Source of the DNA: Gordonia terrae
GTDB lineage: Bacteria > Actinomycetota > Actinomycetes > Mycobacteriales > Mycobacteriaceae
DNA length: 64,000 bases
Direction of reading: 5' to 3'
Assembly (NCBI RefSeq): GCF_001698225.1
Contig: NZ_CP016594.1
Span: 62,001-126,000 of the forward strand
Positions 15,066-64,000 of this stretch are shown here, one piece after another. The notes beneath the pieces were generated by a model. It searched no databases. It was not told where the DNA came from and saw only the letters and a list, made by a program, of their open reading frames with translations. The translations under genes and the position numbers were made by a program. The first letter of the stretch is position 1. Every line of letters starts with the position of its first letter.

Positions 15066-15198
15066 GATGGCGAGCAGCCACCGCTCACGGAAGCGGAGCT
15101 TGAGAAACTGTTCCTCGCACTGGCCTAAACAGTCGGCCAACCTAGTACTACCGCGAGTCGTAGCGACTTGAATCGCCCCGGGTTTGCTGGAGGCTCGG

Positions 15199-16161
15199 TT
15201 AGTTGGTTCCAGCGTTTGCGGGGACCGGGTTCTCACGGTAGCTGGTGACGGTTTGGGTCGACCAGTAGGCGCTCTCGTACTCGACGGGTGGGACGTGTCC
15301 GATCTCGCCGTGCAGGCGGCGGTGGTTGAACCATTCGACGTACTCAGCGACGGCGATCTCGACCTCGCCCACACCTGCCCAGCCGCCTCGCGGGCGCATC
15401 ACGGGGTTACGGATGCATTCGGCTTTGAACAGCGAGTTGAACGCCTCAGCCATCGCGTTGTCGTATGAATCCCCTTTGGAGCCAACAGATGTCACCGCTT
15501 CGGCTTCGGCCAGTCGTTCGGTGTAGCGGATGGCTCGGTATTGCACTCCGCGGTCGGAGTGGTGGATCAGCCCGGCCACGTCGTGGCCGGCACGCGACCG
15601 TGCCCACAATCCCATGTTCAGGGCGTCGAGGGCGAGGTCGGTGTGCATGGTGGTCGAGACCTGCCAGCCGACGACCATCCGCGAGAACACGTCCAGGACG
15701 AACGCCGCGTACACCCAGCCCGAGTGGGTGCGGATGTAGGTCAGGTCCGCCACCCACAACGCGTTCGGTGCCGCCGCGGTGAACTGACGGTTGACCCGGT
15801 CAGCCGGCCGGGGTGTTTCAGCTCCCTCGCTGCGCGTGGTCTTGCGTGTCTTGAGTCTCGCTATCCCTTGCAGCCCATCGGCTTTCATCAATCGCTCGAC
15901 GGTGCAGCGGGCAGCACTATGGCCCTGTCTGCGCAATTGGGCATGCACCTTGCGGGCACCGTAGACGCCGAGGTTGTCGGCATGCACCGCGCGGACCTGG
16001 GTAAGGAGCTCCCGGTCACGCACCACACGAGGCGCCTCGGTCTTCTGGGGGCTCAGGTGGGCTCGTACCGTGGACGGAGCGATCTGGGCGGACGTATCGC
16101 GCAATGCCGCACAGATCGGATCGACTCCGTGTTCATCGCGGTGAGCCGCGACGAACTCCAC
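15199..16161 (-). CDS. IS3-A transposase OrfB
   Basis: 320-residue DDE catalytic subunit. The HTH_21-like region (LGVYGARKVHAQLRRQGH) precedes the integrase core with VADLTYIRTHSGW, LIHHSDRGVQY and NAMAEAFNSLFKAE, giving the D, D and E residues. It is in the -1 frame relative to orfA, so an OrfAB fusion by frameshifting is expected as in other IS3 elements. The frame is complete in this copy. Confidence 0.93.
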   Translation of the reverse strand: MEFVAAHRDEHGVDPICAALRDTSAQIAPSTVRAHLSPQKTEAPRVVRDRELLTQVRAVHADNLGVYGARKVHAQLRRQGHSAARCTVERLMKADGLQGIARLKTRKTTRSEGAETPRPADRVNRQFTAAAPNALWVADLTYIRTHSGWVYAAFVLDVFSRMVVGWQVSTTMHTDLALDALNMGLWARSRAGHDVAGLIHHSDRGVQYRAIRYTERLAEAEAVTSVGSKGDSYDNAMAEAFNSLFKAECIRNPVMRPRGGWAGVGEVEIAVAEYVEWFNHRRLHGEIGHVPPVEYESAYWSTQTVTSYRENPVPANAGTN

Positions 16162-16163
16162 GA

Positions 16164-16490
16164 TCAGCGCTGTGGGCGGTCGATCTCCGCCGCAAAGAAA
16201 GCCGAAGCCTGCTTCAAGATCGTGTTCGCTCGCCGCAGTTCACGGTTCTCCCGCTCCAACGCCGCGATGCGGTCAGCGTCCTCACTCGTGGTGCCCGGGC
16301 GGACCCCGCCGTCGATCTCGGCCTGACGAACCCAATTGCGCAACGCCTCGGGATGGACTCCGAGCTGATCGGCGATCCGCTTGATCGCACCTCTCGACGA
16401 ATCGGGATCTCGTCGCGCTTCACATGCCATCCGGGTGGCCCGGTCCTTGAGTTCCTCACTGTACTTGCGTGGTGCTGCCATGCTCTCCAT
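16164..16490 (-). CDS. IS3-A OrfA
   Basis: 108-residue DNA-binding subunit. It holds a helix-turn-helix (IKRIADQLGVHPEALRNWVRQ) and a C-terminal leucine-zipper-like helix (RIAALERENRELRRANTIL), typical of IS3 OrfA. The ATG before AAPRKYSEEL is the likely start. The same sequence recurs at 30258, 47843 and 61147. Confidence 0.92.
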   Translation of the reverse strand: MESMAAPRKYSEELKDRATRMACEARRDPDSSRGAIKRIADQLGVHPEALRNWVRQAEIDGGVRPGTTSEDADRIAALERENRELRRANTILKQASAFFAAEIDRPQR

Positions 16491-16533
16491 CCTTCACAGG
16501 TTCGAGAGCCTCCGACAGACCCGGGGCGGTTCA

Positions 16534-27850: not shown

Positions 27851-28138
27851 TCATGCCGCGGCAGCGGCGGTGTTGATCATTGCTTCGAACTCGACAGGCG
27901 TCAACCGACCGAGGCGGGCTTGCCGGCGCCGGCGGCGGTAGGTCCGTTCGATCCAGGTGACGATCGCGATCCGAAGCTGCTCGCGGGTGTCCCAGCGTTG
28001 GCGGTCGAGCACGTTGCGTTGCAGGAGTGCGAAGAAACTCTCCATCGCTGCGTTGTCCCCGCACGCTCCGACTTTGCCCATCGACCCCGTGAGTCCATGA
28101 GTGTTCAAGGCGTGTACGAATTTTCGCGATCGGAATTG
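27851..28138 (-). pseudogene. C-terminal remnant of a different IS3-family transposase (IS3-B)
   Basis: About 95 codons matching the end of an IS3 OrfB: RSRKFVHALNTHGLTGSMGK, GDNAAMESFFALLQRNVLD and RRQARLGRLTPVEFEAMI. The conserved glutamate of the DDE triad is in NAAMESFF. The N-terminal part is missing because an IS30 element abuts at 28139. The sequence is not IS3-A. Confidence 0.85.
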
Positions 28139-29634
28139 GGCGCGTTCAATCGGTCGATGCAACACTGGGTTGTTGTAGCGAGTGTAGTTGTTCGCCAAAG
28201 ACTTCGGCGGGAGTTTTCCATCCAAGGACTTTTCTAGGACGGTTGTTGAGGGTGTAGGCGATGGCCTCGAGGTCCTCAGCTGACCACCGCGACAGATCAG
28301 TTCCCTTAGGAAAATATTGGCGCAGAACACCATTGGTGTTCTCGTTGGATGGTCGCTGCCACGGTGAGTGCGGATCGGCGAAGAACACCTGCGTTCCGGT
28401 GTCCATCGCGAACTGGGCGTGAGCGGACAGTTCCTTGCCGCGATCCCACGTCAACGTTTTGCGCAACTGCTGCGGCAGCGCGGCGATCGACGCTGTCAGT
28501 CCTGCATTCATCGCGATGGCACCGTAGCCACCGAGTGCGGGCCCGTTCTTCACAGGCGGCTGCTCACCCCAGCCCTGCTGGCGTGGCAGATGCACCAGAA
28601 GTGTTGCACGACTACGACGTTCAACGATCGTGCCGATCGCCGATCTCCCAGTTCCGATAATCAGATCACCCTCCCAGTGCCCGGGGACGGCACGGTCCTC
28701 GGCCTCGGCAGGGCGCTGACTGAACACGACATCGGAGGTGACGTGACCCTGCGGCTTGTTGCGCGAGCGGGCCCGCGGCTCCCTCAGTGCACGTCCGGTG
28801 CGCAGGCACGCGACCAGCTCACGTTTGAGCGCGCCGCGGCCCTCGATGAACAGGGACTGGTAGATCGCCTCGTGACTGATACGCATGGATTCATCATCGG
28901 GGAAGTCGACCTTCAAACGCTGGGAGATCTGCTCTGGACTCCACGCCAGCGACCACCGCCGGTTGGCCCGGTGCGGTTTGTTAAGCCCCTTCCATGGCGG
29001 TGGCGTGGGGCCCGCAGCGATCGTGCCATCGGGACGGCGGACAACGCCGGCCAGGCGGTCCTGTACGTACTCCCGCAACTCGACGTGGGCCACGAGCTTC
29101 GCTGTTTTCGGGCGCTTGGCGGCCTGCTGGGCTTTCCACTGCGCCACCAACGCCCGATACTCGAGCTTCCCGCTCCTGGTTGCGGCGTTGCGCCGTAGCT
29201 CACGCGAGATCGTGGCCGGACTCCGCCCGATCCACCGTGCGATCTCACGCACCCCACGATCCTGGGCGCGTAGCAGCGCGATCTCTTCCCGTTCGGCGAA
29301 GGATAGATAGCGGCCCGAAGGCTCATCCAGACTCAGCGGCCTCATGCCGCCAGCGTGGCGGAACCAGCGTGTACCCACCGGCACCGACACACCGACAGCG
29401 ATCGATGCCTGTGCCGTGCTCACCCCCGTCGCGACCACCCGCCAAAACTCACGTTGCACCTGCCGCGACGGCTCCGGCCGCCCCGGCGATCGCATCGCCG
29501 GCCGAAGTGCACGATCAGCACGCCACTGCCGACGAACACCTACCGCCACATCGCTGGTCCTCCGACTCCAGTCCGCCGTAGCCACCGCAAACACCTCCAT
29601 GATCATGGTGTTGCGACGACCAGTTGAATCCGCC
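28139..29634 (-). mobile_element. IS30-family element, copy 1
   Basis: 1496 bp, the same length as the copy at 59028 and apparently the same sequence. The ends GGCGCGTTCAATCGGTCG and, from the right, GGCGGATTCAACTGGTCG are imperfect inverted repeats continuing with GCAACAC. TTG stands on both sides (28136-28138 and 29635-29637), but the left flank is IS3-B and the right flank is IS3-A, so the flanks do not come from one target. Confidence 0.92.
28146..29606 (-). CDS. IS30-family transposase (copy 1)
   Basis: 486 residues. The N-terminal HTH_38 region (LSFAEREEIALLRAQDRGVREIA followed by GRSPATISRELRRN) is diagnostic for IS30. The DDE core shows GHWEGDLIIGTG, TWDRGKELSAH and SNENTNGVLRQYFPKG. 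Start choice is uncertain; an internal ATG before RSPGRPEPSR is also possible. The frame is intact. Confidence 0.92.
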   Translation of the reverse strand: MIMEVFAVATADWSRRTSDVAVGVRRQWRADRALRPAMRSPGRPEPSRQVQREFWRVVATGVSTAQASIAVGVSVPVGTRWFRHAGGMRPLSLDEPSGRYLSFAEREEIALLRAQDRGVREIARWIGRSPATISRELRRNAATRSGKLEYRALVAQWKAQQAAKRPKTAKLVAHVELREYVQDRLAGVVRRPDGTIAAGPTPPPWKGLNKPHRANRRWSLAWSPEQISQRLKVDFPDDESMRISHEAIYQSLFIEGRGALKRELVACLRTGRALREPRARSRNKPQGHVTSDVVFSQRPAEAEDRAVPGHWEGDLIIGTGRSAIGTIVERRSRATLLVHLPRQQGWGEQPPVKNGPALGGYGAIAMNAGLTASIAALPQQLRKTLTWDRGKELSAHAQFAMDTGTQVFFADPHSPWQRPSNENTNGVLRQYFPKGTDLSRWSAEDLEAIAYTLNNRPRKVLGWKTPAEVFGEQLHSLQQPSVASTD

Positions 29635-30255
29635 TTGCACTCCGCGGTCGGAGTGGTGGATCAGCCCGGCCACGTCGTGGCCGGCACGCGACCGTGCCCA
29701 CAATCCCATGTTCAGGGCGTCGAGGGCGAGGTCGGTGTGCATGGTGGTCGAGACCTGCCAGCCGACGACCATCCGCGAGAACACGTCCAGGACGAACGCC
29801 GCGTACACCCAGCCCGAGTGGGTGCGGATGTAGGTCAGGTCCGCCACCCACAACGCGTTCGGTGCCGCCGCGGTGAACTGACGGTTGACCCGGTCAGCCG
29901 GCCGGGGTGTTTCAGCTCCCTCGCTGCGCGTGGTCTTGCGTGTCTTGAGTCTCGCTATCCCTTGCAGCCCATCGGCTTTCATCAATCGCTCGACGGTGCA
30001 GCGGGCAGCACTATGGCCCTGTCTGCGCAATTGGGCATGCACCTTGCGGGCACCGTAGACGCCGAGGTTGTCGGCATGCACCGCGCGGACCTGGGTAAGG
30101 AGCTCCCGGTCACGCACCACACGAGGCGCCTCGGTCTTCTGGGGGCTCAGGTGGGCTCGTACCGTGGACGGAGCGATCTGGGCGGACGTATCGCGCAATG
30201 CCGCACAGATCGGATCGACTCCGTGTTCATCGCGGTGAGCCGCGACGAACTCCAC
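29635..30255 (-). pseudogene. IS3-A OrfB, truncated (copy 2)
   Basis: The first two thirds of OrfB, ending at HHSDRGVQ where IS30 begins; the open frame runs on into IS30 sequence and is not functional. The DDE glutamate region is missing. Confidence 0.9.
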
Positions 30256-30257
30256 GA

Positions 30258-30584
30258 TCAGCGCTGTGGGCGGTCGATCTCCGCCGCAAAGAAAGCCGAA
30301 GCCTGCTTCAAGATCGTGTTCGCTCGCCGCAGTTCACGGTTCTCCCGCTCCAACGCCGCGATGCGGTCAGCGTCCTCACTCGTGGTGCCCGGGCGGACCC
30401 CGCCGTCGATCTCGGCCTGACGAACCCAATTGCGCAACGCCTCGGGATGGACTCCGAGCTGATCGGCGATCCGCTTGATCGCACCTCTCGACGAATCGGG
30501 ATCTCGTCGCGCTTCACATGCCATCCGGGTGGCCCGGTCCTTGAGTTCCTCACTGTACTTGCGTGGTGCTGCCATGCTCTCCAT
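30258..30584 (-). CDS. IS3-A OrfA (copy 2)
   Basis: 108 residues, identical to the OrfA of copy 1 as far as I can compare. It is intact but its partner OrfB is cut. Confidence 0.9.
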   Translation of the reverse strand: MESMAAPRKYSEELKDRATRMACEARRDPDSSRGAIKRIADQLGVHPEALRNWVRQAEIDGGVRPGTTSEDADRIAALERENRELRRANTILKQASAFFAAEIDRPQR

Positions 30585-30814
30585 CCTTCACAGGTTCGAG
30601 AGCCTCCGACAGACCCGGGGCGGTTCAACCACCAGCCAGCCGCGTACCAAGGTCAGTGCAGCTAGCGTTTGAATTAGGACGCAACTCATCTATCACGGGC
30701 GACGGTGCTGCGTCATGCTTATGCCCCTCCTACCTGTTGACGGAATGGTCGGGATATTCAGCGACCGACGCTTGTCAGATCCCCATGGGTCCGTCCGCGT
30801 GACTTTTGCGATGG

Positions 30815-47694: not shown

Positions 47695-47842
47695 TGAAAT
47701 CACCCTCCTAACAAGACGGGGGGGGTCAAAATTCACCCGTCGTCAGGGGGTCAGTTTTCAGGCGTCGTCAACATACGGTGCGTCGGTATCGAAAGACACT
47801 GAACCGCCCCGGGTCTGTCGGAGGCTCTCGAACCTGTGAAGG

Positions 47843-48169
47843 ATGGAGAGCATGGCAGCACCACGCAAGTACAGTGAGGAACTCAAGGACCGGGCCACCC
47901 GGATGGCATGTGAAGCGCGACGAGATCCCGATTCGTCGAGAGGTGCGATCAAGCGGATCGCCGATCAGCTCGGAGTCCATCCCGAGGCGTTGCGCAATTG
48001 GGTTCGTCAGGCCGAGATCGACGGCGGGGTCCGCCCGGGCACCACGAGTGAGGACGCTGACCGCATCGCGGCGTTGGAGCGGGAGAACCGTGAACTGCGG
48101 CGAGCGAACACGATCTTGAAGCAGGCTTCGGCTTTCTTTGCGGCGGAGATCGACCGCCCACAGCGCTGA
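47843..48169 (+). CDS. IS3-A OrfA (copy 4)
   Basis: 108 residues, same sequence as the other copies. Intact helix-turn-helix and leucine-zipper-like helix. Confidence 0.9.
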   Translation: MESMAAPRKYSEELKDRATRMACEARRDPDSSRGAIKRIADQLGVHPEALRNWVRQAEIDGGVRPGTTSEDADRIAALERENRELRRANTILKQASAFFAAEIDRPQR

Positions 48170-48171
48170 TC

Positions 48172-49133
48172 GTGGAGTTCGTCGCGGCTCACCGCGATGA
48201 ACACGGAGTCGATCCGATCTGTGCGGCATTGCGCGATACGTCCGCCCAGATCGCTCCGTCCACGGTACGAGCCCACCTGAGCCCCCAGAAGACCGAGGCG
48301 CCTCGTGTGGTGCGTGACCGGGAGCTCCTTACCCAGGTCCGCGCGGTGCATGCCGACAACCTCGGCGTCTACGGTGCCCGCAAGGTGCATGCCCAATTGC
48401 GCAGACAGGGCCATAGTGTTGCCCGCTGCACCGTCGAGCGATTGATGAAAGCCGATGGGCTGCAGGGGATAGCGAGACTCAAGACACGCAAGACCACGCG
48501 CAGCGAGGGAGCTGAAACACCCCGGCCGGCTGACCGGGTCAACCGTCAGTTCACCGCGGCGGCACCGAACGCGTTGTGGGTGGCGGACCTGACCTACATC
48601 CGCACCCACTCGGGCTGGGTGTACGCGGCGTTCGTCCTGGACGTGTTCTCGCGGATGGTCGTCGGCTGGCAGGTCTCGACCACCATGCACACCGACCTCG
48701 CCCTCGACGCCCTGAACATGGGATTGTGGGCACGGTCGCGTGCCGGCCACGACGTGGCCGGGCTGATCCACCACTCCGACCGCGGAGTGCAATACCGAGC
48801 CATCCGCTACACCGAACGACTGGCCGAAGCCGAAGCGGTGACATCTGTTGGCTCCAAAGGGGATTCATACGACAACGCGATGGCTGAGGCGTTCAACTCG
48901 CTGTTCAAAGCCGAATGCATCCGTAACCCGTGATGCGCCCGCGAGGCGGCTGGGCAGGTGTGGGCGAGGTCGAGATCGCCGTCGCTGAGTACGTCGAATG
49001 GTTCAACCACCGCCGCCTGCACGGCGAGATCGGACACGTCCCACCCGTCGAGTACGAGAGCGCCTACTGGTCGACCCACACCGTCACCAGCTACCGTGAG
49101 AACCCGGTCCCCGCAAACGCTGGAACCAACTAA
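48172..49133 (+). pseudogene. IS3-A OrfB, frameshifted (copy 4)
   Basis: Compared with copy 1 one C is missing in the run at about 48926-48929, so the frame ends at AECIRNP and continues in another frame as MRPRGGWAGVGEV. It also differs by a few substitutions (for example GHSVARC for GHSAARC). The DDE residues precede the break, but the C-terminal tail is lost. Confidence 0.9.
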
Positions 49134-49163
49134 CCGAGCCTCCAGCAAACCCGGGGCGATTCA

Positions 49164-57213: not shown

Positions 57214-57634
57214 GTGGCGGTGAGCATCAATGGCCTCGACGACGTCGATCCGCGGCGGGTTCGTTCCCGGAACCGTCTGCTCGACGCCACGGCGGTGTTG
57301 CTGCGCAGCGGGGGAGTGGAGGCTGTCACCGTCGAGGCGGTCACGAGCGTTCCCGCAGCTGGAGACAGTCGTGCGGCAGCAGTCGGTCGACCCGATCCCT
57401 GCGGGAGTGCCGTCGTTTCAGTCATTCGACCGGATGGGCACGGCGTTCGGGGAGAAAGGCGCCAAGACAACGGCGTTTATCGCCATGGAGAACCGTGGCG
57501 GCCTCACCCCGACGGTGCGTGCACGCTACGACGAGCTTGTCCAGGAACTTCGTGGCACCACCGCCGATGTCGCTTCCGCCCGCGACCTGGTGGGGGGATC
57601 GCCGATGTGTGTTGTCGAACTTGTCAGGATGTAA
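57214..57634 (+). pseudogene. TetR-MmpL deletion remnant
   Basis: The first about 45 codons match the TetR gene at 41064 (DDVDPRRVRSRNRLLDAT, VEAVTVEAVT). The sequence then jumps directly to the MmpL N-terminal region in another frame (FPQLETVVRQQSVDPIPAGV, FGEKGAKTTAFIAMEN) and stops soon after ARDLVGG. Compared with 41064-42200, most of tetR and the first part of mmpL have been deleted, and the rest of mmpL is gone. Confidence 0.85.
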
Positions 57635-57659: not shown

Positions 57660-58652
57660 CTAGAAGTACTGGCCGACGTCGGCAATCTTGTAGGCCACCG
57701 GGTCATGCAGGCTGTGCGTCCGGATGTTGCGCCAGAACCGGTCCAGCCCCAAACGCGGGTGTGTCCCACGCGCCCCGATGACCTCGAAGATCCGGCTGCC
57801 TATAGACAGACCCGCCTCGGTGGCCAAGACCTTCACCCCCGACACCTGAACCATCAGCGAGGCCCGATCGGCGGGTGCCAAAGCATCACCCTTCTCCCAG
57901 ATCCGCTGCACCGCGTGCGACGCATCGCGGGCCGCCGCGTCAGCGCCTTGTAGTTTAATCGCAAGCTCTCCAAAGGTCCGAACTACGTATGGATCCTGCG
58001 TGGCCTCAGAAACCCCCGCAGGGGTCCATGGCCGTGCGTGCTCCAGCGTGTATTCGCGAGCGGAGTCCAGCGCTTCGGCGGCAATTCCTATGTAGACGTG
58101 CGAGAAGATCAGTTGCACCAACGGGCCGAATAGGCTGGCGCGCCTATAGCCGAAAAAGTCGGTGATCACGCTGTTCGGAGCCCCCAACACCTCGTGCGGA
58201 AGCACTTGAACATCTTTGAAGTCCGTTGTACCGCTGTCGGTCCGCCGCATCCCCAGGGCTTTCCAGTCATTGTTGGGACGCACTCCCCCTCGGTCGGTGG
58301 GTATGACCGCTGTGATAATTCCCGACCGCTCGGGTGAGTCATCATCCTGCGCCACGCCAAACACCAGAAGCAGATCGGATCCGAGCGCCCCGCTACAGAA
58401 ATGCTTGGTCCCGTTCAGCACGTAACCACCGTCGTCGCGTGGGGTTGCACGCACCTTCCAGTCGAGAATGTGACTGTTGTTCTCGCTCAACGCGTTCCCC
58501 GTCCAGGAACCCTGCGCCACGCGGCGGTAAGTGGCGTCGCGCTGCTCCGGCGAGCCGAGGAGTTCGATGAAGGCTGCACACACGAGGTGGTATCCGTAGA
58601 GGTGGCCAAGCGAGCCGTCGACCTTGGCAATCTCGCGGATTACTGCGAAGAC
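57660..58652 (-). pseudogene. dszC: dszC, C-terminal part (dibenzothiophene monooxygenase)
   Basis: DszC is the FMNH2-dependent monooxygenase that oxidises dibenzothiophene to its sulfone, first in the 4S pathway. This part runs from VFAVIREIAKVDGSLGHL to HDPVAYKIADVGQYF and includes NNSHILDWKVRATP, GTKHFCSGALGSDLL and VIGARGTHPR, all matching remembered DszC. The frame is open but cut from its N-terminus by IS3-A with a GAC duplication. The end is about a dozen residues shorter than I remember for DszC of strain IGTS8. No start signal remains, so this piece is inactive. Confidence 0.93.
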
Positions 58653-58682
58653 TGAATCGCCCCGGGTTTGCTGGAGGCTCGG

Positions 58683-59027
58683 TTAGTTGGTTCCAGCGTT
58701 TGCGGGGACCGGGTTCTCACGGTAGCTGGTGACGGTGTGGGTCGACCAGTAGGCGCTCTCGTACTCGACGGGTGGGACGTGTCCGATCTCGCCGTGCAGG
58801 CGGCGGTGGTTGAACCATTCGACGTACTCAGCGACGGCGATCTCGACCTCGCCCACACCTGCCCAGCCGCCTCGCGGGCGCATCACGGGGTTACGGATGC
58901 ATTCGGCTTTGAACAGCGAGTTGAACGCCTCAGCCATCGCGTTGTCGTATGAATCCCCCTTGGAGCCAACAGATGTCACCGCTTCGGCTTCGGCCAGTCG
59001 TTCGGTGTAGCGGATGGCTCGGTATTG
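58683..59027 (-). pseudogene. IS3-A OrfB, C-terminal part (copy 3)
   Basis: From YRAIRYTERLAEAEAVTS to the end, including NAMAEAFNSLFKAE. Cut by IS30 at the codons for HHSDRGVQ. Carries the same THTVTSY variant as copy 4, so copies 3 and 4 may be closest relatives. Confidence 0.9.
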
Positions 59028-60523
59028 GGCGCGTTCAATCGGTCGATGCAACACTGGGTTGTTGTAGCGAGTGTAGTTGTTCGCCAAAGACTTCGGCGGG
59101 AGTTTTCCATCCAAGGACTTTTCTAGGACGGTTGTTGAGGGTGTAGGCGATGGCCTCGAGGTCCTCAGCTGACCACCGCGACAGATCAGTTCCCTTAGGA
59201 AAATATTGGCGCAGAACACCATTGGTGTTCTCGTTGGATGGTCGCTGCCACGGTGAGTGCGGATCGGCGAAGAACACCTGCGTTCCGGTGTCCATCGCGA
59301 ACTGGGCGTGAGCGGACAGTTCCTTGCCGCGATCCCACGTCAACGTTTTGCGCAACTGCTGCGGCAGCGCGGCGATCGACGCTGTCAGTCCTGCATTCAT
59401 CGCGATGGCACCGTAGCCACCGAGTGCGGGCCCGTTCTTCACAGGCGGCTGCTCACCCCAGCCCTGCTGGCGTGGCAGATGCACCAGAAGTGTTGCACGA
59501 CTACGACGTTCAACGATCGTGCCGATCGCCGATCTCCCAGTTCCGATAATCAGATCACCCTCCCAGTGCCCGGGGACGGCACGGTCCTCGGCCTCGGCAG
59601 GGCGCTGACTGAACACGACATCGGAGGTGACGTGACCCTGCGGCTTGTTGCGCGAGCGGGCCCGCGGCTCCCTCAGTGCACGTCCGGTGCGCAGGCACGC
59701 GACCAGCTCACGTTTGAGCGCGCCGCGGCCCTCGATGAACAGGGACTGGTAGATCGCCTCGTGACTGATACGCATGGATTCATCATCGGGGAAGTCGACC
59801 TTCAAACGCTGGGAGATCTGCTCTGGACTCCACGCCAGCGACCACCGCCGGTTGGCCCGGTGCGGTTTGTTAAGCCCCTTCCATGGCGGTGGCGTGGGGC
59901 CCGCAGCGATCGTGCCATCGGGACGGCGGACAACGCCGGCCAGGCGGTCCTGTACGTACTCCCGCAACTCGACGTGGGCCACGAGCTTCGCTGTTTTCGG
60001 GCGCTTGGCGGCCTGCTGGGCTTTCCACTGCGCCACCAACGCCCGATACTCGAGCTTCCCGCTCCTGGTTGCGGCGTTGCGCCGTAGCTCACGCGAGATC
60101 GTGGCCGGACTCCGCCCGATCCACCGTGCGATCTCACGCACCCCACGATCCTGGGCGCGTAGCAGCGCGATCTCTTCCCGTTCGGCGAAGGATAGATAGC
60201 GGCCCGAAGGCTCATCCAGACTCAGCGGCCTCATGCCGCCAGCGTGGCGGAACCAGCGTGTACCCACCGGCACCGACACACCGACAGCGATCGATGCCTG
60301 TGCCGTGCTCACCCCCGTCGCGACCACCCGCCAAAACTCACGTTGCACCTGCCGCGACGGCTCCGGCCGCCCCGGCGATCGCATCGCCGGCCGAAGTGCA
60401 CGATCAGCACGCCACTGCCGACGAACACCTACCGCCACATCGCTGGTCCTCCGACTCCAGTCCGCCGTAGCCACCGCAAACACCTCCATGATCATGGTGT
60501 TGCGACGACCAGTTGAATCCGCC
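59028..60523 (-). mobile_element. IS30-family element, copy 2
   Basis: 1496 bp, same ends as copy 1. TTG duplication at 59025-59027 and 60524-60526; both flanks are IS3-A and rejoin to an intact OrfB, so this is an original insertion. Confidence 0.95.
59035..60495 (-). CDS. IS30-family transposase (copy 2)
   Basis: 486 residues, the same protein as at 28146, intact, with the IS30 HTH and DDE motifs described there. Confidence 0.92.
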   Translation of the reverse strand: MIMEVFAVATADWSRRTSDVAVGVRRQWRADRALRPAMRSPGRPEPSRQVQREFWRVVATGVSTAQASIAVGVSVPVGTRWFRHAGGMRPLSLDEPSGRYLSFAEREEIALLRAQDRGVREIARWIGRSPATISRELRRNAATRSGKLEYRALVAQWKAQQAAKRPKTAKLVAHVELREYVQDRLAGVVRRPDGTIAAGPTPPPWKGLNKPHRANRRWSLAWSPEQISQRLKVDFPDDESMRISHEAIYQSLFIEGRGALKRELVACLRTGRALREPRARSRNKPQGHVTSDVVFSQRPAEAEDRAVPGHWEGDLIIGTGRSAIGTIVERRSRATLLVHLPRQQGWGEQPPVKNGPALGGYGAIAMNAGLTASIAALPQQLRKTLTWDRGKELSAHAQFAMDTGTQVFFADPHSPWQRPSNENTNGVLRQYFPKGTDLSRWSAEDLEAIAYTLNNRPRKVLGWKTPAEVFGEQLHSLQQPSVASTD

Positions 60524-61144
60524 TTGCACTCCGCGGTCGGAGTGGTGGATCAGCCCGGCCACGTCGTGGCCGGCACGCGACCGTGCCCACAATCCCATGT
60601 TCAGGGCGTCGAGGGCGAGGTCGGTGTGCATGGTGGTCGAGACCTGCCAGCCGACGACCATCCGCGAGAACACGTCCAGGACGAACGCCGCGTACACCCA
60701 GCCCGAGTGGGTGCGGATGTAGGTCAGGTCCGCCACCCACAACGCGTTCGGTGCCGCCGCGGTGAACTGACGGTTGACCCGGTCAGCCGGCCGGGGTGTT
60801 TCAGCTCCCTCGCTGCGCGTGGTCTTGCGTGTCTTGAGTCTCGCTATCCCTTGCAGCCCATCGGCTTTCATCAATCGCTCGACGGTGCAGCGGGCAGCAC
60901 TATGGCCCTGTCTGCGCAATTGGGCATGCACCTTGCGGGCACCGTAGACGCCGAGGTTGTCGGCATGCACCGCGCGGACCTGGGTAAGGAGCTCCCGGTC
61001 ACGCACCACACGAGGCGCCTCGGTCTTCTGGGGGCTCAGGTGGGCTCGTACCGTGGACGGAGCGATCTGGGCGGACGTATCGCGCAATGCCGCACAGATC
61101 GGATCGACTCCGTGTTCATCGCGGTGAGCCGCGACGAACTCCAC
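60524..61144 (-). pseudogene. IS3-A OrfB, N-terminal part (copy 3)
   Basis: Identical in extent to the truncated OrfB at 29635-30255. Starts at GTG after OrfA and is cut at HHSDRGVQ by IS30. Confidence 0.9.
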
Positions 61145-61146
61145 GA

Positions 61147-61473
61147 TCAGCGCTGTGGGCGGTCGATCTCCGCCGCAAAGAAAGCCGAAGCCTGCTTCAA
61201 GATCGTGTTCGCTCGCCGCAGTTCACGGTTCTCCCGCTCCAACGCCGCGATGCGGTCAGCGTCCTCACTCGTGGTGCCCGGGCGGACCCCGCCGTCGATC
61301 TCGGCCTGACGAACCCAATTGCGCAACGCCTCGGGATGGACTCCGAGCTGATCGGCGATCCGCTTGATCGCACCTCTCGACGAATCGGGATCTCGTCGCG
61401 CTTCACATGCCATCCGGGTGGCCCGGTCCTTGAGTTCCTCACTGTACTTGCGTGGTGCTGCCATGCTCTCCAT
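61147..61473 (-). CDS. IS3-A OrfA (copy 3)
   Basis: 108 residues, same as the other copies; intact although OrfB is split. Confidence 0.9.
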   Translation of the reverse strand: MESMAAPRKYSEELKDRATRMACEARRDPDSSRGAIKRIADQLGVHPEALRNWVRQAEIDGGVRPGTTSEDADRIAALERENRELRRANTILKQASAFFAAEIDRPQR

Positions 61474-61516
61474 CCTTCACAGGTTCGAGAGCCTCCGACA
61501 GACCCGGGGCGGTTCA

Positions 61517-61738
61517 GACCGTCGGCCAATCTGCGCCCCAACCACCGTGCTCCTCGGGTACCGCGAGCGCCAGCAGACCACTTAGGCGTAAGTCCTCTTT
61601 CTCACGGGTGGCTGGCCCCCCATCGCGATCCCGTTCGACGATTCCCTCCCGCCAGCTTGCAGCAAGGTCTCGAGCCACCGCGAGAGGATCGCCCGCCCGC
61701 CGGTCGGTGGCCGCCGCCGTGTCGTCGGTGACTGTCAT
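61517..61738 (-). pseudogene. dszC: dszC, N-terminal part
   Basis: Starts at an ATG overlapping the dszB stop (ATGA) and reads [12 protein letters not shown] through DPLAVARDLAASWREG and LLALAVPEEHGGWGADWPTV, matching the DszC N-terminus. It runs into the IS3-A end after about 74 codons. Removing the insertion and one GAC joins WPTV directly to FAVIREIA in frame, proving that the gene was intact before insertion. Confidence 0.93.
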
Positions 61739-62829
61739 TCGTATTCTCCAATCGCTGATGTGCCGGCCGCGCATGTACGCAGGCTCGTCTGCAGAAATTC
61801 CGGGGCCGACCAATCAGTCAGGTCGATCGCCTTATCCACCAGATCGTGGTCGACCAGGTACCGCTGTGTCGCAGCAAGGACAGTGAGCGCATCGTGGTCG
61901 AGGGTGGGTACTAAGTTGTCGGTGAAGTGCTCGCCGAAACCGCGTGTCACCGCAGTCTCGCTAACACCGAGGTTGCGGGCATGAATCGCGACTGTCTCGG
62001 TCAGATGATCGCGCGCCCAGGAGCCTGCCCGGACCACCGTATCCACCAGATGCTGCACGAGTGACGGGTTCTTATCGACGAGTTGCGCGCTGATTGTCCA
62101 AACGCTGGCGTAGTGGCTTGTCCTGTCCAAGCTCAGGTCACGCAGCGGTCTAACACCGGTGAGGTCTTCGAACTCCGCGGACCACGGAAGCCAGCTGAAT
62201 AGCGCATCGACCGTCCCCCCGGCAAAGACTTGTGCCTGATGGGCCCCGACGGCGGGAAAGAGGTCCGAACCGTTCACTGATGCCGATGCGCTGAGTCGGT
62301 CCTGCGGTAAGTCGACTCCCGCCGTCTCAATGGGTACGAGCTCGATATCGTTTACTGTTACGCCGGAGTGACGAAGGGTGTGCTGCAGGGCTCGCGCCTC
62401 CCAAGTGCCCAGTGCGACGAGAGTCTGGCGCCACGGGTCGAGCTGTCGGTAGTCACCAAGGTCGCCGCGCAGGATCCGGATTGCCGATGCGGATACGCCG
62501 ACACGATGCCCCGCCAGTTGCTCCGGTGCGGTCAGGGTGGGGTCGGCCGCGTAAAAGCCCAGCTTTCCCTCGAACAGGGTGACGCCCAGGAGGCGTGTGC
62601 GACCCGGTGCACGCAGGCCCTCACTCACCAACGGCGGGATCTCTCCGCCGAATCGGGTGTAAGCGGGATGATCGTAGGTGAAGTGCAAGGAGCCCAGCGG
62701 CCCTCCCAGCACGTCCAGATTGATGCCAGCCTCGGCGAGCAACTGCGACTCGCGGCCAACCAGCAGGGCGTTGGGAACAGGGCAGTTGCTGTACGCGAGG
62801 GTGTGGACCGCTGAGCTGGTGTCGGTCAC
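61735..62829 (-). CDS. dszB: DszB, 2'-hydroxybiphenyl-2-sulfinate desulfinase
   Basis: 364 residues, the last enzyme of the 4S pathway, releasing sulfite from hydroxybiphenyl sulfinate. The catalytic residues known from DszB (Cys27, His60, Arg70) correspond here to Cys16 ([11 protein letters not shown]), His49 (LHFTYD) and Arg59 (YTRFGGE), all shifted by 11 because the N-terminus is shorter. Other matches are [26 protein letters not shown] and [12 protein letters not shown]. The GTG start overlaps the dszA stop, and the stop overlaps the dszC start. The frame is intact. Confidence 0.95.
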
Positions 62830-64000
62830 AGCGCCGCCGCCCCGCTTGGCAGTTCCAGGCCGAGGTGGTCGCGCAGCGTTGATCCCTCATACTCGTCGCG
62901 GAATACCCCACGTTCTTGCAACAGCGGCACCACCTGGTCGACAAAGTCCTCGTAAACGCCGGGCAGATAGGCGGCGGAGATGATGAACCCATCAGCCGCT
63001 CTCGCATCGAAGTACTCGACCAGTCTGTCGGCGATCTGGGTGGGCGTTCCTCCCCACTGCGGGACAAAACCCACGTTCGTGCCATAACGCTTTCCAAGGT
63101 CGGCCAGTGTCAGATCCTCGCCGTCGCTCGCAACCGTGGAGAACATGTGGAGCATGGTGGGGATGTGCGCGTCCCCCAAGCTCGCGACGATGTCGGAGTA
63201 CTTCGCGTCTAGGGGGAAGGCGGACAAGTCGATTCCACTATGACTCGACAACGTCGACAGACCGACCTCGGGGTGGACGAGACCGTTGATGTATTCGAGG
63301 CGATCGCGTGCGATCGCCTCGGTCTCCCCAAGTATGGGCATGACAGCTGTGAAAACCTTCGTGGCGTCGGGGTTGCGACCCGCGGCACTCACTTGCCCCT
63401 TGATGTCCTGGTACGTGCGCTGCATCATCTCCAGCGTCGGCGAGATGCTGAACACGGCGTCGGCCCACTGGCCCGCGAAACGTCTACCGCGAGGCGACAA
63501 TCCGGCCTGGAGGAGTACTGGCTCGCGCTGACTTGAAGGGGGGATTTGCAGGGGGCCGCGCACGTCGAACCAGTCACCACGGTGATCGACGTAATGAACT
63601 TTCTTAGGATCAGCGAACCGGCCGCAGATCTTGTCCAACAGCAGCGCATCATCGTCCCACGAGTTCCACAGCTTACGTACGACCTCGACGAACTCGTCCG
63701 CGCGGTCGTAACGGGTGTCGTGTTCAAGATGAGCATCGATTCCGAAGTTCTTTGCCTCTGAATCGTTCAGCGATGTCACGATGTTCCACGACACCCGCCC
63801 GTCGGACAGGTTATCCAGCGTTGCCAGGATACGGGCGACGTGAAACGGCGGGTAATACGTGGTGGAGATGGTGGCTCCAAGTCCCAACCGGTCGGTCACG
63901 GCGGCCATCGTCGCCACCACCGTGGCGGGCTCGAGTGCGATCGCGCCCTGGCCGCCCAGTCCGACGCCTGTTTGCAGATCATGGCCGTAGCTGTCCTCGA
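62826..64000 (-). CDS. dszA: DszA, dibenzothiophene sulfone monooxygenase (N-terminus beyond window)
   Basis: About 390 residues are visible; roughly 60 N-terminal residues lie past the window end. DszA is a flavin-dependent (bacterial luciferase-like, NtaA/SnaA group) monooxygenase opening the sulfone ring. Matches to remembered DszA include [75 protein letters not shown] and [15 protein letters not shown]. The frame stays open to the edge. It is first of the dszABC operon, overlapping dszB by GTGA; promoter not in view. Confidence 0.95.

Follow-up and report, generated by a model that had tools for sequence, protein, structure and literature searches.

The desulfurization gene dszC of Gordonia terrae was found to be broken by a nested pair of insertion sequences (IS) in a 64,000-nucleotide stretch of the genome (the window, C1:62001-126000 of a one-contig genome of 5,701,501 bases). 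An IS3-family element, IS3-A, splits the gene and is itself split by an IS30-family element, as was checked base by base. The explanation we hold to be highly probable is that this IS30 belongs to a lineage that inserts mostly at one conserved codon of the IS3 transposase gene, the DNA of which is likely recognised as its target. By itself, the dsz finding is ordinary decay through insertion sequences, and the targeting pattern is the part that merits a second look.

The genome has three copies of this IS30, and each sits directly after the Gln codon of the motif HHSD-x-G-x-Q^Y/F in IS3 orfB. Their hosts are IS3-A within dszC, a second element (IS3-B) upstream of dszA, and a chimera of IS3-A and a third element (IS3-C). 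A sequence-only reading of the window had described the nest in dszC and missed that its IS30 is one of three insertions at the same IS3 codon. In the coding sense, the triplet repeated by the insertion is CAA or CAG. In IS3-A, the site follows the second catalytic Asp by four residues and precedes the Glu, and 35 residues separate that Asp from the Glu, so each insertion parts two catalytic residues of the IS3 transposase. The halves of the split IS3-A meet at profile positions 285/286 of NF033516, and all IS3 profile matches in the genome sum to ~9 kb of 5.70 Mb. The family assignment of IS3-A is supported by the IS3 transposase profile, the TG...CA ends (TGAATCGCCC / GGGCGGTTCA), the 3-bp duplication, and the Asp-35-Glu spacing. 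Target duplications in the IS30 family are short, at 2-3 bp, and the inserted element has a TTG duplication, imperfect terminal inverted repeats (GGCGGATTCAACTGGTCG / GGCGCGTTCAATCGGTCG), and a score of 235 bits with NF033563 (cut-off 80). Another IS30-family element, at contig 3,937,645-3,938,439, is of a different type, and an end-like stretch nearby (L095; G and L numbers are our handles for genomes and loci) lies off the motif.

The insertion sites of the lineage were surveyed with the IS30 5' end alone as the query, which is blind to the flank, so the loci were not picked by their flanks. This end was present in 38 of 401 genomes of the family and 21 of 394 of the class, while the pattern read backward gave zero matches in the same family and class tables. 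Every match listed was fetched, and with the genus loci included, there were 86 distinct junctions, 85 of them with a flank. A strict in-frame motif test was passed by 38 of the 85; comparison of the flanks with IS3 proteins placed 51 forward and 7 reverse at IS3 orfB, which, together with two reverse sites recognised by eye (L101 and L165), gives 60 of 85. Of the 66 copies for which the fetched stretch also contained a transposase match, 49 were at the IS3 orfB site, and the share by transposase identity to the IS30 studied here was 27/32 at >=75%, 18/27 at 60-75%, and 4/7 at <60%. The 49 verified copies comprised 42 in forward and 7 in reverse orientation. At a threshold of 80% nucleotide identity, the 51 forward sites fall into 43 different IS3 elements. 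The IS30 lies in frame behind the Gln codon, which is usually duplicated, and identical 3-bp duplications were seen in 19 of the 21 copies with both ends resolved. In G185, G239, G423, and G483, which were selected for having several copies, an independent NCBIfam IS3 profile repeatedly placed the break at 285/286. Two of these genomes carried three identical IS3::IS30 composites each (G185, L161-L163; G483, L133, L156, and L187), and no unsplit copy of the composite's IS3 was found in either (3/3 copies split in each). Such triplets may be composites travelling as units or may reflect every copy having been struck; both fit strong targeting.

The same site was observed in named plasmid records, of which 14 of 24 were fetched, plus pGKT3 of Gordonia sp. 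KTR9. The IS30 was at the motif in 10 of the 14: Gordonia sp. SMJS1, G. hongkongensis, and G. polyisoprenivorans VH2 p174 (one end); Streptomyces NBC_01136, NBC_01384, NBC_01724, and NBC_01497 (the last with one end); and, in reverse, Rhodococcus koreensis unnamed1, Embleya NBC_00896, and Paraburkholderia aromaticivorans pBN2 (the last with one end, 46 bases). Streptomyces NBC_01462 was doubtful for the motif, and Mycolicibacterium rufum, R. koreensis unnamed4, and Cupriavidus oxalaticus were off it.

Three side observations came from the survey. On contig C3 of G239, five IS3 matches end at profile position 237, a second recurrent orfB break near 232-237. G050 holds three copies (L088, L089, L090) of a more distant element with a similar end in repetitive-looking sequence, perhaps with another target preference. 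At an IS3 motif site in G008 (L092/L094), the match to the IS30 end is confined to its first 27 bases and may be a remnant or belong to a more distant relative's end.

The identity of the broken gene as dszC is clear, and the earlier description of IS3-A with a GAC duplication in dszC and IS30 with a TTG duplication in IS3-A was borne out to the base, with GAC at 58650-58652 and 61517-61519 and TTG at 59025-59027 and 60524-60526 (Table 1). The claim that both frames rejoin once the insertions are removed also held. Aligned separately with the intact DszC of Williamsia serinedens, the N-terminal piece matches residues 1-74 and the C-terminal piece residues 74-403, so the frame is continuous through the duplicated codon; the unsplit IS3-A at 15169-16533 has one TTG only at the IS30 site. 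The separate pieces score 581.8 and 109 with NF043015, for which the cut-off for DszC as one protein is 850. Besides the split, an in-frame stop at 57660-57662 removes 12 C-terminal residues that are present in the four relatives read; it is the only point lesion in the dszC pieces and also occurs in G015, another Gordonia species, and in pGKT3. A second dszC was not found in the genome because, of 31 matches, one is this locus and the other 30 are all at <=35% identity, which answers the sequence-only reading's call to look for an intact copy elsewhere. The DszC function is predicted to be lost. By the 3' end of dszC, at window 57,214-57,634, a TetR-like start leads into a fragment of mmpL, with 57,349-57,540 being 75% identical to the Williamsia mmpL.

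Table 1. Coordinates of the features discussed, on the window scale unless the contig is named.
Feature	Position	Strand	Remarks
dszC N-terminal piece	61517-61738	-	74 codons, ending in the GAC duplication; NF043015 positions 1-74
dszC C-terminal piece	57660-58652	-	NF043015 positions 98-403 of 415 for the listed open reading frame; ends at a premature stop
IS3-A including the IS30 insert	58653-61516	-	IS3-A alone 1365 bp; GAC on both sides
IS30-family element	59028-60523	-	1496 bp; TTG on both sides; NF033563; three identical copies in the genome
IS30 transposase open reading frame	59035-60495	-	
dszB	61735-62829	-	open, 364 aa; PDB 2de2/2de3 DszB, E 2e-134
dszA, part in the window	62826-64000	-	frame runs on to contig 126127 (window scale 64127), starting within an IS630 end
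Triple nest right of the window	contig 126,111-130,015 (L031 2112-6016)		IS630 interrupted by IS3-B, which is itself interrupted by the same IS30
IS3-C/IS30/IS3-A chimera	27851-30627	-	IS3-C half (to 28138); identical IS30 28139-29634 with TTG on both sides; IS3-A half 29635-30627
Unsplit IS3-A	15169-16533	-	ACT duplication; empty IS30 site visible
Second unsplit IS3-A	47800-49163	+	one base shorter; broken frame; CAC duplication

Of the operon genes, only dszB looks whole. The sequence-only reading had taken both dszA and dszB as intact-looking; this stands for dszB, which is open, but dszA looks whole only within the window, and its first ~30 codons are gone just past the edge (in the next ~130 contig bases), at an IS630. 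The family assignment of this IS630 rests on NF033545 scores of 121.9 and 130.4 bits for its two halves and TA on both sides. The remaining dszA frame starts inside the IS630 terminal repeat, and matches begin late, from residue 29 in BdsA (5tlc) and from position 20 in TIGR03860. The N-terminal 31 residues of the Williamsia DszA were not found in contig 42-144 kb (best E 0.08 at 45%; Williamsia control E 9e-19). Deletion or recombination with or after the IS630 probably removed them, because there is no dszA start on its far side. Use of dszA from a start within the IS630 end was considered; the frame is open, but the N-terminal stretch is gone and function would be unlikely. DszA is accordingly predicted to be inactive, and the suggestion that it could still process externally supplied sulfone is not supported, its first ~30 residues being absent.

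The broken operon is neither confined to this strain nor in its expected place. In W. serinedens DSM 45037 (L022), the regions corresponding to window 36.2-30.8 and 27.7-22.0 kb are collinear, with main pieces at 72-75% and 76% nucleotide identity. Between its mmpL and ligase gene, Williamsia has dszABC in the same gene order (dszA 91% and dszB 72% protein identity), whereas here the IS3-C/IS30/IS3-A chimera is found at that site and the operon lies ~27 kb away. The Williamsia operon is complete and in place, while that of Gordonia is truncated, split, and displaced. As to the route out of the mmpL/ligase site, the chimera is what crossing over between two copies of the IS30 could leave, but the reciprocal product was not seen among the three copies in the genome. 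G015 carries window 50,218-70,221 at 99.885% (19 mismatches in 20,004 aligned bases), including 100% identity over the dszC C-terminal piece and over the stretch from dszB to the dszC N-terminal piece, while its background is at 88% at the single chromosomal locus compared. Given this difference from that one background locus, the segment was likely exchanged between Gordonia species after it was broken, i.e., as a dead operon. Plasmid pGKT3 matches window 19.1-59.0 kb (19,147-59,027) at >=99.87%, with further matches from 12,345. It holds the dszC C-terminal piece and an unsplit IS3-A at the same junction, with different DNA on the far side, and its IS30 copy is the chimera. A contig of G039, from the same genus, has this IS30 at 119513-121008, in the same place as in pGKT3. 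The pGKT3-like stretch here lies on a chromosome-sized contig, and plasmid DNA may have integrated.

Since the dszC/IS3-A junction recurs in pGKT3 with the IS3-A still unsplit, the order of IS3-A first and IS30 second is favoured. The earlier claim that the two events are dated relative to each other is thus retained as the likelier order, although recombination with another IS3-A copy would look alike. Variable sites among the IS3-A copies gave no event order because most variants are common to copies of one replicon.

These observations are consistent with a mechanism in which the IS30 transposase would recognise DNA that is kept constant by coding for the IS3 catalytic motif; that it reads the DNA of the motif is likely, judging from the junctions. 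Many different IS3 elements would thereby offer dispensable, abundant, and mobile landing sites. At this locus, IS3-A would have entered dszC and IS30 would then have entered IS3-A. A nonsense change, the IS630 with nested IS3-B and IS30, and deletions would have harmed the rest of the operon, with no order implied, and the dead operon may then have been exchanged between Gordonia species. We lean slightly toward a broader reading in which the lineage, from Actinomycetes to Burkholderiales, would be a dedicated IS3 hyperparasite, reading the DNA of the Asp motif, hitting one Gln codon in almost any IS3, silencing the transposase, and riding IS3::IS30 composites moved by related transposases.

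Several points weigh against site targeting. Seventeen of the 66 verified copies lie off any IS3 motif; by a matrix built from the IS3 sites, six of these resemble the target at the DNA level and 11 do not, which on the question of DNA or protein being recognised is suggestive only. The comparison panel consisted of the strict sites plus IS3-A, with self hits excluded. Two of the 49 copies (L101 and L165) were assigned by eye, the forward calls L141 and L147 rest on the motif, with the alignment stopping short of the junction, and protein similarity is weak in the reverse calls L103, L137, and L177. In G056, where the 5' ends were missed by the pattern, only half of the copies (2 of 4) lie at the motif. 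The survey covered this IS30 lineage alone. If the IS30 inserted anywhere and those copies that fall within dispensable IS3 elements survived, the dispensability of IS3 and the copies found elsewhere would be accommodated; survival alone, however, would scatter insertions across IS3, and what is observed is one codon in 43 different elements with a nearly constant orientation. We therefore regard untargeted insertion as very improbable.

A more serious competitor, though one we still consider unlikely, is that the IS30 entered IS3-A elsewhere and that the transposase of an intact IS3-A then moved the ready-made IS3-A::IS30 unit into dszC. An intact IS3-A exists in the genome, and the triplets of G185 and G483, with IS30 in every copy, agree with such movement. 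Against this, IS3-A is unsplit at the same dszC junction in pGKT3, and a second complete IS3-A::IS30 unit was not found in the G. terrae genome, just a half. The sequence-only reading had proposed that desulfurization was lost recently and is decaying in place, and that dszA and dszB could still be used. The open dszB and the single point lesion in the dszC pieces would suit this, but dszA is without its N-terminus, the lesions are common to G015, and the operon has left the position between mmpL and the ligase gene that it has in Williamsia. The loss is thus not a private one in place, and we rate that account as quite improbable. An assembly error joining repeated elements is hardly credible: IS3-A and the IS30 are indeed multi-copy and nearly identical, but the same junctions occur in G015, the dszC/IS3-A junction is present in the public pGKT3 record, and the target duplications are clean.

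For mobile elements with a site preference, the usual targets are tRNA genes, repeats, or the ends of the element itself. Here, the preferred reading places the site in a conserved block of codons within the catalytic gene of a rival element, and a single sequence preference would thereby span very many different IS3 elements and disable each one struck. If confirmed by assay, this would be a brake that nature has put on IS3 elements, and it would offer a clean model for the dynamics of insertion sequences that parasitise other insertion sequences. For genome readers, there is a caution that an IS30 of this kind within an IS3 is to be expected in these bacteria and is not rare. For desulfurization, the locus is an example of a dead dsz operon common to different species.

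No report of an IS30 targeting IS3 orfB was found in searches of open-access papers, with ISfinder and most subscription papers being outside the search. Target preference in IS30 is already known: IS30 of E. coli has a marked preference for nearly palindromic hot spots and its own inverted repeats (PMC9333248). The transposase family is the same, but the E. coli targets are hot spots or own repeats as described there, compared with an IS3 orfB codon block here (PMC9333248). A palindromic hot spot or own inverted repeat, which the family does not require, was not the target here, where the 49 of 66 copies at IS3 orfB were judged by location and not by palindromy. ISLxc3 of Leifsonia xyli, also of the IS30 family, is 1511 bp long and has the inverted repeat GGCGGATTC...GTCGTTGCAACA; two copies are flanked by a duplicated NTG, and its authors reported that they could detect no conserved target site (PMC2516522). 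Its inverted repeat, size, and NTG duplication are similar to those of the IS30 here (plus strand), a likeness drawn from the published description, flanks aside (PMC2516522). The same paper describes IS1237 within ISLxc2, with three copies at one position of another IS (PMC2516522). In contrast to the IS30 studied here, IS1237 is of the IS5 family and, as described there, lies upstream of the transposase gene and in one host IS only (PMC2516522).

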